Assembly (NCBI RefSeq): GCF_004698125.1
Contig: NZ_ML214297.1
Coordinates: 1,054,001-1,118,000, forward strand
Direction of reading: 5' to 3'
Source: Halosimplex halophilum
Lineage (GTDB): Archaea; Halobacteriota; Halobacteria; Halobacteriales; Haloarculaceae
Length of the DNA stretch: 64,000 nt
Shown: piece by piece, positions 9,502 to 51,144 of the stretch
Position numbering within the stretch: the stretch's first letter is position 1
Layout: the number at the start of each line of letters is the position of its first letter
Made by a program: the position numbers and the translations under genes
Notes under the pieces: model-generated
What the model was told of the DNA's origin: nothing
Seen by the model: only the letters and a program-made list of their open reading frames with translations
Database searches by the model: none

Positions 9502-9575
9502 CGGGCCGGAAGGGATTTGAACCCCTGACCGTCTGATTAAGAGTCAGACGCTCTGCCGGACTGAGCTACCGGCCC
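9502..9575 (-). tRNA. tRNA-Lys (anticodon CTT)
   Basis: Read on the minus strand, the 7-bp acceptor GGGCCGG pairs with CCGGCCC. The D-arm begins TAGCTCAG, the anticodon loop is CTCTTAA with CTT, and the T-arm contains GGTTCAAATCC. It is 74 nt with discriminator G and no encoded CCA or intron. A TATA-like element lies near 9601-9610, about 30 nt upstream. Confidence 0.96.
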
Positions 9576-49053: not shown

Positions 49054-51144
49054 ATGAGCGGGGTGTCGGGGGACGGGATCCGGGTCCTCCACGTCGACGA
49101 CGACCGGGACGTGTCCGAGCTGACCGCCACGTTCCTCGAACGGGCCGACGAGCGGTTCACCGTCGAGACGGCCGCCGACGCCGCCGAGGGGCTGGACCGG
49201 CTCGAGGACTGCGCGTTCGACTGCGTCGTCTCGGACTACGAGATGCCGGGGCTCGACGGGATCGAGTTCCTGGAGCGGGTCAGGGAGTCCTGCCCGGAGC
49301 TCCCCTTCATCCTCTTCACCGGGAAGGGGTCGGAGGCGGTGGCGAGCGAGGCCATCTCCGCCGGCGTGACCGACTACCTCCAGAAGGAGACCGGGACCGA
49401 CCAGTACACGGTGCTGGCCAACCGGGTCGCCAACGCCGTCGAGCACGCCCGGTCCCAGCGGCGGGTCGAACGCAGCGAGCGCCGGCTCCGGAAGATCGTC
49501 GACTCGCTGCCCCACCTGGTCTACGTGGTCGACGGGTCTGGGACCTACCGCCTGGTCAACGAGGCGCTGGCGGCGTTCCACGGGACGACCGTCGAGGCGA
49601 TCGAGGGCTCGACCGTCGACGACGTGCTGAGCGACCGCGCGGCGGCGAAGTTCCTGCAGGACTTCCGGTCGGTCATCGAGACCGGCGAGCCGAAACACCT
49701 CTCGGGGGTCGAGGTGGCCGACGCCGAGGGGCGGACCCACGTCTTCGAGCCGCAGATATTCCCCTACGACATCGGCGAGAACGGCGACCGCGCGGTGCTG
49801 GGCGTGACCCGCGACGTGACCGACCGGGCGGAGCGCGAGCGGAAGCTCGAACGGCTGCAACACCGGACCCGGGCGCTGATGCACACGGAGACGGCCGAGG
49901 AGACCGCCCGCGTGGCGACCGAGGCCGCCGACGCCCTCCTGGAAGCCCGACTGAGCGGCGTGTTCCTGCTCGACGACGGCGGCGATCGGCTCGAACCGGC
50001 CGCCGTCGTCGACGCCGTCCGCGAGGCGTTCGACGAGGTCCCGGAGTACCCGCGGGACGCCCCCGAGGGGTCGCGGGCCGCGCTGGTGTGGGACGCCTTC
50101 GAGACCGGCGAGCCCGTCCGGATCGACGACGTCCCCGCCGACGACCGGGTCGACGAGCCGACCCCCTCGCGGAGCGTGATCCTCTACCCGATGGGCGACC
50201 ACGGCGTGTTCGTCGTCTCCGCCGAGCGGACCCACGCCTTCTCGGGGACCGACGAGGTGCTCGTCGAGATCCTGGCGACGACGCTCGAAGCCGCCCTCGA
50301 CCGCACCGAGCGCCGGGCGGAGCTGCGCAGCCAGCGCGACGAGCTCGAACGGAAGAACGAACGCCTGGAGGAGTTCACGAGCGTCGTCAGCCACGACCTC
50401 CGGAACCCGCTGACGGTGCTGAACGGCGCGATCGAGGCGGCCGAGGCGACCGGCGACCCCGAACACTTCGAGCGCGGCCGGGACGCCGTCGACCGGATGG
50501 ACGCGATGATCGAGAACCTCCTGGCGCTGTCCCGGCAGGGCGAGGCGATCTCCGAGCCCGAATCGGTCGACCTCGCGGAGGCGGCCGTCCGGGCGTGGGG
50601 CGCCGTCGAGACCGACGCCGAACGCCTCGCCGTCGAGACCGACCGGACGATCCGGGCAGACCCCGACCGGCTCGCGCACCTGCTGGAGAACCTGTTCCGG
50701 AACGCCGTGGAACACGGTTCCACGAGCCCTCAGTCGCAGGCTCCTGGGGACGCCGACGGAGCGAGCTCCGCCGAGCCGTCGGTCGCTGACGCTCCAGGAG
50801 ACGCCGTCGAGCACGGCTCGACGAGCGGTCACCCGGAGGCCGACGACGGGGTCGAACACGGCGCCGCGGGCCGGGCGGCGGACGAGGTCGGCGAAGACGG
50901 GCTCGTCGTCCGCGTCGGTGACGTCGACGGCGGGTTCTTCGTCGCCGACGACGGTCCGGGGATCCCGGGGGACGTGCGCGAGGAGGTGTTCGAATCGGGG
51001 TTCTCGACGCGGGGCGACAGCACCGGGTTCGGGCTGGCCATCGTCGACCGGATCGCCGAGGCCCACGACTGGAGCGTCGCGGCGACCGAGAGCGAGGACG
51101 GCGGCGCGCGCTTCGAGATCACCGGCGTCGACTTCGGGGAGTGA
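49054..51144 (+). CDS. Receiver-PAS-GAF-histidine kinase
   Basis: 696 residues from the ATG at 49054 (TATA AGTTATAG at 49023-49030). Order: receiver with phospho-acceptor D61 (VVSDYEMPG), PAS (~145-265), GAF (~275-420), HisKA with H447 (VVSHDLRNPLTVL), HATPase with N box NLFRNAVEHG, G1 VADDGPGIPGDV and G2 STGFGLAI. Between N and G1 box is an extra ~55-residue segment with repeated AVEHGSTS. Signal and partner unknown. Confidence 0.92.
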   Translation: MSGVSGDGIRVLHVDDDRDVSELTATFLERADERFTVETAADAAEGLDRLEDCAFDCVVSDYEMPGLDGIEFLERVRESCPELPFILFTGKGSEAVASEAISAGVTDYLQKETGTDQYTVLANRVANAVEHARSQRRVERSERRLRKIVDSLPHLVYVVDGSGTYRLVNEALAAFHGTTVEAIEGSTVDDVLSDRAAAKFLQDFRSVIETGEPKHLSGVEVADAEGRTHVFEPQIFPYDIGENGDRAVLGVTRDVTDRAERERKLERLQHRTRALMHTETAEETARVATEAADALLEARLSGVFLLDDGGDRLEPAAVVDAVREAFDEVPEYPRDAPEGSRAALVWDAFETGEPVRIDDVPADDRVDEPTPSRSVILYPMGDHGVFVVSAERTHAFSGTDEVLVEILATTLEAALDRTERRAELRSQRDELERKNERLEEFTSVVSHDLRNPLTVLNGAIEAAEATGDPEHFERGRDAVDRMDAMIENLLALSRQGEAISEPESVDLAEAAVRAWGAVETDAERLAVETDRTIRADPDRLAHLLENLFRNAVEHGSTSPQSQAPGDADGASSAEPSVADAPGDAVEHGSTSGHPEADDGVEHGAAGRAADEVGEDGLVVRVGDVDGGFFVADDGPGIPGDVREEVFESGFSTRGDSTGFGLAIVDRIAEAHDWSVAATESEDGGARFEITGVDFGE
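50707..50823 (+). repeat. 99-bp spaced palindromic duplication inside the histidine kinase gene
   Basis: Two copies of a palindrome with the same CACGG centre lie 99 bp (33 codons) apart: GTGGAA/TTCCAC (50707-50723) and GTCGAG/CTCGAC (50806-50822). Between them are nested inverted repeats: CTCCTGG 50741-50747 with CCAGGAG 50794-50800, CCGACGG 50753-50759 with CCGTCGG 50776-50782, and GGAGC-GA-GCTCC 50758-50769. The reading frame stays open. Confidence 0.7.

Follow-up and report, generated by a model that had tools for sequence, protein, structure and literature searches.

An in-frame array behind the N box of a haloarchaeal histidine kinase and its probable origin in a family of palindromic double-hairpin elements

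The window analysed here, a stretch of 64,000 nucleotides from Halosimplex halophilum, encodes a histidine kinase in which an in-frame array of palindromic repeats lies directly behind the N box (NAVEHG) and before the G1 box. What is this array made of, and is it the peptide or the underlying DNA that is preserved? An earlier note, based on the letters of the window, had suggested a recurring hairpin that expands within this one protein site. The analysis described below favours a broader answer: with a probability of about 0.8, small mobile palindromic elements, members of a haloarchaeal family here named double-hairpin elements, make up the array. Their best reading is that of a haloarchaeal family new to the literature that behaves like the Rickettsia palindromic elements (RPE); the open-access literature searched holds no description of it, and a description may exist elsewhere.

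The position of the array is best appreciated in the predicted structure of the kinase (mean pLDDT 80). The N-box helix (106-124) stops at the glycine of VEHG, the insert is modelled as disordered (pLDDT about 46-51), and the next strand (187-193) precedes G1. In this model the insert occupies the N-G1 loop, which links the N-box helix to the pre-G1 strand, and the array peptide of the kinases is a disordered loop behind that helix. The insert had previously been assigned to the ATP lid, a location that is slightly wrong, as the lid comes after G1 and the insert before it; the accompanying claim that the reading frame is unbroken holds for the kinase array.

Table 1. Features of the kinase gene and of its array, numbered from the first letter of the window
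Feature	Position	Strand	Basis
Host gene, REC-PAS-GAF-HisKA-HATPase histidine kinase, 696 aa from ATG 49054	49054..51144	+	Pfam, ORF
N box coding region LLENLFRNAVEHG; its GCCGTGGAACACGG is the left arm of hairpin A	50682..50717	+	sequence, structure model
Unit 1, kinase-type double-hairpin element VEHGSTSPQSQAPGDA	50706..50754	+	covariance models R1, R2
Hairpin A of unit 1, CGTGGAAC-ACG-GTTCCACG	50706..50724	+	sequence, covariation
Arms of first palindrome, CGTGGAAC/GTTCCACG	50706-50713 and 50717-50724
Hairpin B of unit 1, CCTCAG-TCGCAGGCTC-CTGGGG, one T.G pair	50728..50749	+	covariation
Inverted repeat, 7 bp, CTCCTGG/CCAGGAG	50741/50794
Inverted repeat, 7 bp, CCGACGG/CCGTCGG	50753/50776
Inverted repeat, 5 bp, GGAGC/GCTCC	50758/50765
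Unit 2, decayed generic double-hairpin element DGASSAEPSVADAPGDA	50754..50805	+	alignment, peptide similarity
Unit 3, 45-bp kind, VEHGSTSGHPEADD, hairpin A CGTCGAGC-ACG-GCTCGACG	50805..50847	+	R1 32.4 bits, E 1.8e-7
Arms of second palindrome, CGTCGAGC/GCTCGACG	50805-50812 and 50816-50823
Decayed third VEHG GTCGAACACGGC, end of array	50851..50862	+	sequence

The region encoding AVEHGSTS does occur twice, 99 bp apart, as originally reported: GTGGAACACGGTTCCAC starts at 50707 and GTCGAGCACGGCTCGAC at 50806, and both code for VEHGST. The two copies differ at four wobble positions (the third positions of the Val, Glu, Gly and Ser codons), with the peptide and all base pairs kept. Each forms a palindrome with a stem of its own, although the arms, given as 6 bp in the earlier note, are 8 bp long and enclose a 3-nt loop; the description of three nested inverted repeats (7, 7 and 5 bp) is likewise correct (Table 1). 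Read unit by unit, the array, whose units measure 45-51 bp, consists of a kinase-type unit, then a decayed generic element, then a 45-bp-type unit and then a decayed VEHG. Unit 1 scores 73.1 bits (E 5.4e-19) with covariance model R1 and 61.1 bits (E 2.1e-12) with R2, being itself among the training sequences of both alignments, which otherwise derive from relatives. Unit 2 has no match to either model. It is composed of hairpin A CGACGGAGC-GA-GCTCCGCCG (8/9 pairs), AGC, the loop TCGCTGACGCTC and a decayed B stem, is translated in another frame, and is identical to the unit at locus L100 at 43/55 aligned positions and to an intragenic copy at L302 at 42/53.

AVEHGSTSP strings are indeed recurrent in haloarchaeal kinases, and the hairpin pattern is found in 184/392 Halobacteriales genomes. 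The kinase G1 motif follows in 243 of the 268 distinct hairpin copies fetched, the others including chance matches, truncated loci and a few unrelated proteins. The unit plan comprises hairpin A (CGTNGARC-AYG-GYTCNACG), an AGC spacer and hairpin B (CCTNNN-TCGCARGCTC-N'N'N'AGG). Units in kinases measure 48 bp (STSPxSQAxxDAVEHG), 45 bp (STSSRPxADDAVEHG) or 51 bp and more, their flavours appear to be lineage-specific, and the spacing inside arrays is a multiple of three in 189/190 cases. The number of units is not fixed between relatives. The largest arrays reach 8 VEHG copies and L152 carries seven near-identical tandem 48-bp units; orthologues of the window kinase in four other Halosimplex genomes (83-87% identity) have no array at all, and one orthologue (83% identity) has an array whose units have been gained, lost or reordered. 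Kinase copies at L057, L122 and L144 seem to have lost the frame in or close to the array, through truncation or a shift of the reading, and are possibly pseudogenes or assembly errors. No match to the kinase hairpin was detected in the viral contigs searched. Pattern matches from Planctomycetota, rhizobia and Paenibacillus were rejected as members, since they lack the unit and lie in unrelated contexts.

The strongest evidence that these units are more than a repeated peptide comes from their stems. Across the 243 haloarchaeal kinase copies, pairing in hairpin A lies far above what codon bias produces in codon-shuffled controls: the Val-Ser wobble pair is complementary in 213/243 copies versus 106 ± 7 in 5000 codon shuffles, the Glu-Gly pair in 214/243 versus 120 ± 8 in 5000 codon shuffles among copies, and both together in 201/243 versus 52. 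The earlier note had recognized hairpin A but missed hairpin B, which covaries through amino-acid changes. Watson-Crick complementarity at its three variable pairs reaches 117, 105 and 107 of 128 distinct units, where independence would predict 63, 41 and 45 of 128, and changes of these pairs alter amino acids on both sides (for instance PDSQARQD, PASQAQQD, PRSQAPED and PPSQARED). The covariation score of 35 diverse units amounts to 0.374, compared with 0.133 in shuffles (0/500) and ≤0.078 in slid registers; these pairing and covariation counts treat related copies as independent, so that their exact significance is overstated, and the effect size together with the nonsynonymous compensation is not easily explained by relatedness. 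What is kept is the fold of the DNA, not the peptide. Because stem pairs are preserved through amino-acid changes, the units show with unusual clarity how, within a gene, the structure of the DNA can prevail over the sequence of the peptide. Exceptions to the Glu-Gly pair are of the G.T type in 12 copies and of the A.C type in 13, and hairpin B behaves similarly; the two types being about equal, there is no preference for the coding strand. For the Glu-Gly pair, a control drawn from native N boxes comprises 8 de-duplicated sequences only, too few for a comparison; judged by eye, GAA with GGC, which do not pair, is the commonest combination among the native N-box matches listed.

Two processes could keep the stems complementary: selection, if a folded single strand serves as substrate, or templated correction acting on the palindromes. 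The second alternative, in which template switching corrects imperfect palindromes and mutation produces the complementarity with no selection, rivals the explanation of the covariation only, as the element would spread by other means. It suits both the near-constant complementarity of three independently varying, loop-adjacent pairs in hairpin B and the strand symmetry of the exceptions. It does not account for the AGC spacer, for the conservation of the loop TCGC...GCTC or for the dispersal of the element, and recombinant arms such as GTGGAGCACGGTTCGAC still persist (7 copies). Such correction is a possible, if somewhat unlikely, source of the pairing.

The change in unit number that the earlier note envisaged is real, but confinement to one protein site is not: relatives of the unit also populate intergenic DNA and unrelated proteins, in either orientation. 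Intergenic Halosimplex copies match a covariance model of the kinase unit; in them the AGC spacer is kept, the loop is similar and the stems are different. Halorussus-like genomes harbour copies both between genes and inside proteins. A search of 296 genomes of the phylum with a generic covariance model returned matches in 61, all of them Halobacteriales, with per-genome copy counts that are lower bounds (20 candidates scored); no genome listed outside Halobacteriales had a match, the listing giving the names of a minority of the match-free genomes. The stem table of the generic copies does not constitute independent evidence, because these copies were partly chosen by pairing. In-frame hosts include a TPP enzyme, CobN, adenylosuccinate synthetase (PurA), the beta subunit of Phe-tRNA synthetase (PheT), argininosuccinate lyase, a release-factor-like protein and an AMP-binding enzyme. 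Intragenic copies occur in either orientation and give at least three peptide readings: GV(S/H)ASxASGGSS..SDG (opposite strand), TVGASSDEPxVADAxxD and AVEHGSTxPRSxxHED. A length divisible by three was recorded for 17/17 of them versus 15/27; since an open frame served as a criterion for calling copies intragenic, part of this excess is circular. No Rfam family matches the element, tRNAs being the only matches; the sole one in the window is a tRNA gene (9502-9575, minus strand).

Taken as a whole, the family is dispersed and structure-conserved, lies between and inside genes in both orientations, and occupies exact positions that are vacant in related species. Orthologues from related species of the same genus span the insertion sites and are shorter by exactly 48 or 57 bp. 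Clean empty sites were identified at L046 (two orthologues) and L270 (four), and partial ones at L267 and L273; at L046, the cleanest, gtggtcggg is separated by 48 bp from gaggacgaggag, and the two are contiguous in the orthologue. Copies 90-96% identical at other loci of the same genus point to recent movement. From these patterns we infer that the elements are mobile; a transposition event or a mobilising gene did not come to light. Part of the presence and absence could reflect precise loss rather than gain, and for many kinase units the route may have been gene conversion between paralogues and not insertion.

The elements span about 48-57 bp, in the order hairpin A, AGC and hairpin B, with ends of the form C[G/A]C...C[G/A]C. 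In the 5' flank the C is found at position -1 in 41/44 copies and at -3 in 43/44, and C[G/A]C is frequent at the 3' end too. A long target-site duplication is absent, as identity between 10-bp flank and element is 2.95 versus 2.93 and 2.41 versus 2.34 when permuted; the candidate duplication is short and ambiguous, consisting of C[G/A]C(CG) repeats only. Copies landing in genes would survive if their length is a multiple of three, the frame used has no stop and the loop is tolerant. Judging from sequence similarity, the N-box DNA AACGCCGTCGAGCACGG resembles the element's own end junction, GACGCC|CGTC.GAGCACG, and this likeness possibly makes N boxes a hot spot by favouring insertion or recombination there. 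Once established, arrays may grow and shrink via unequal exchange between near-identical units.

As to the origin and mover of the element, rather than an alternative to the element itself, a terminal-only remnant of IS200/IS605 (TnpA/TnpB) has to be considered, in which the end hairpins are fused and a Y1 transposase moves single-stranded DNA. Two subterminal hairpins, the short conserved 5' flank C[G/A]C and the lack of a long target duplication fit this proposal. A precedent is provided by the Haloquadratum PATEs, which have near-terminal palindromes and, as described in PMC3119063, a core-deleted, terminal-only form of 52 bp (HqIRS46). Against it, the element lies at the ends of 0/30 TnpB and 0/3 Y1 loci scanned (33 loci out of a larger number), and a hairpin scan likewise gave no end match. 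The one strong match, at L364, is a copy in a neighbouring gene, orthologues of which lack it. Moreover, the element-rich genome G266 has no match to Y1 (PF01797), of which G000 and two Halosimplex relatives have one each, and G228 has none to TnpB. This descent is regarded as unlikely. At L364 (G266 C3:100455) tnpB adjoins the element-bearing gene, and relatives seem to share the neighbourhood without the element.

A bolder proposal is that the elements are site-seeking cassettes: a hairpin-recognizing haloarchaeal recombinase would move folded single strands or circles and join them at junction-like GACGCCGTC, with N boxes serving as attachment sites where cassettes accumulate and are reshuffled. 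If true, such reshuffling would diversify signalling proteins, much as integrons collect cassettes; the scenario is speculative and, in our estimate, improbable.

The array might instead be a kinase-specific protein repeat, VEHGSTSPxSQAxxD, selected as such and multiplied by slippage and paralogue gene conversion, with the palindrome as a by-product of codon usage. Most high-scoring copies do lie in kinases, tandem arrays such as that of L152 are near-identical and flavours seem to follow lineages. Codon shuffles nevertheless destroy the pairing, hairpin B stays paired at the expense of the amino-acid sequence, and similar elements occur in intergenic DNA as well as in proteins of other families, where frame and strand differ. 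This explanation is strongly disfavoured, and a simple tandem protein repeat is rejected, as copies extend beyond one gene family and their variation is not neutral to the DNA fold. A hairpin acting at the RNA level, whether in the regulation or the translation of kinase mRNAs, would account for a stable paired structure on the coding strand but is very improbable, given equal G.T-type and A.C-type exceptions (12 versus 13) that do not privilege that strand, intragenic copies in both orientations and the lack of an Rfam match.

Among known systems, RPEs and intragenic REPs are short palindromes found between genes and in frame in unrelated, presumably functional proteins, the mover being unknown for several families (PMC3733652). 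The haloarchaeal elements share with RPEs their palindromic nature and their dispersal over many loci, intergenic as well as in frame in unrelated proteins, a likeness of behaviour. They differ in being restricted to Halobacteriales in the phylum scan, in their two hairpins, fixed AGC spacer and conserved loop, and in forming tandem arrays at one conserved kinase motif. Haloquadratum PATEs and SMRs are likewise small palindromic mobile repeats devoid of a transposase of their own, the mover of SMRs being unexplained; in the portion of PMC3119063 considered here, SMR-A is about 110 bp long and targets IS605 elements, and neither kind is reported in frame in ordinary proteins. Double-hairpin elements show no association with the TnpB/TnpA loci tested. 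The intergenic Halosimplex copies lie inside mosaics of several hairpins, as in REP/BIME arrangements; the GTAG tag of REPs associated with RAYT is absent, and CGTC is not constant and, in the copies that have it, lies within the stem. Membership of the GTAG/CGTC REP superfamily was rejected, as 44 copies start with CGTC, CGGG, CGGA, CGCC or CGAG inside the stem and G266 has no Y1/RAYT match. Mitochondrial double-hairpin elements and GC clusters also use two adjacent hairpins as a mobile unit, in other genomes and with other sequences.

Rickettsia supplies the best-known cases of palindromic elements that lie in frame and lengthen working proteins by a peptide, and the present family would extend them to haloarchaea. 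It stands out for its clean empty sites, its copies in essential enzymes and its strong hot spot at a kinase catalytic motif. As haloarchaea are genetically tractable, double-hairpin elements offer a direct test of selfish DNA reshaping proteins. The element also explains the puzzling AVEHGSTSP strings, and its inserts distort kinase alignments and domain calls.

A few observations stand apart. Many loci of Halosimplex G000 (L217-L230) contain intergenic mosaics of up to about 500 bp with several different hairpins, which are common to many places of the genome and resemble bacterial BIMEs. The palindrome GTCGAGCACGGATCGACGAG is found many times in marine Planctomycetota MAGs (ARS15 and similar; L127, L130, L133, L137, L145, L146 and L161), in a shared context that reads AKSRRRRRPCRAVEHGSTSPTPRRRRGR in translation, often with stops, and looks like an unrelated repeat family. 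At L312 (1501-1558) and L305 (1501-1552) the flanking host codons repeat an element arm (TTCGACGGCGTC and GGCGTCCACGC, respectively), as if part of the stem had been copied from, or matched to, the target.
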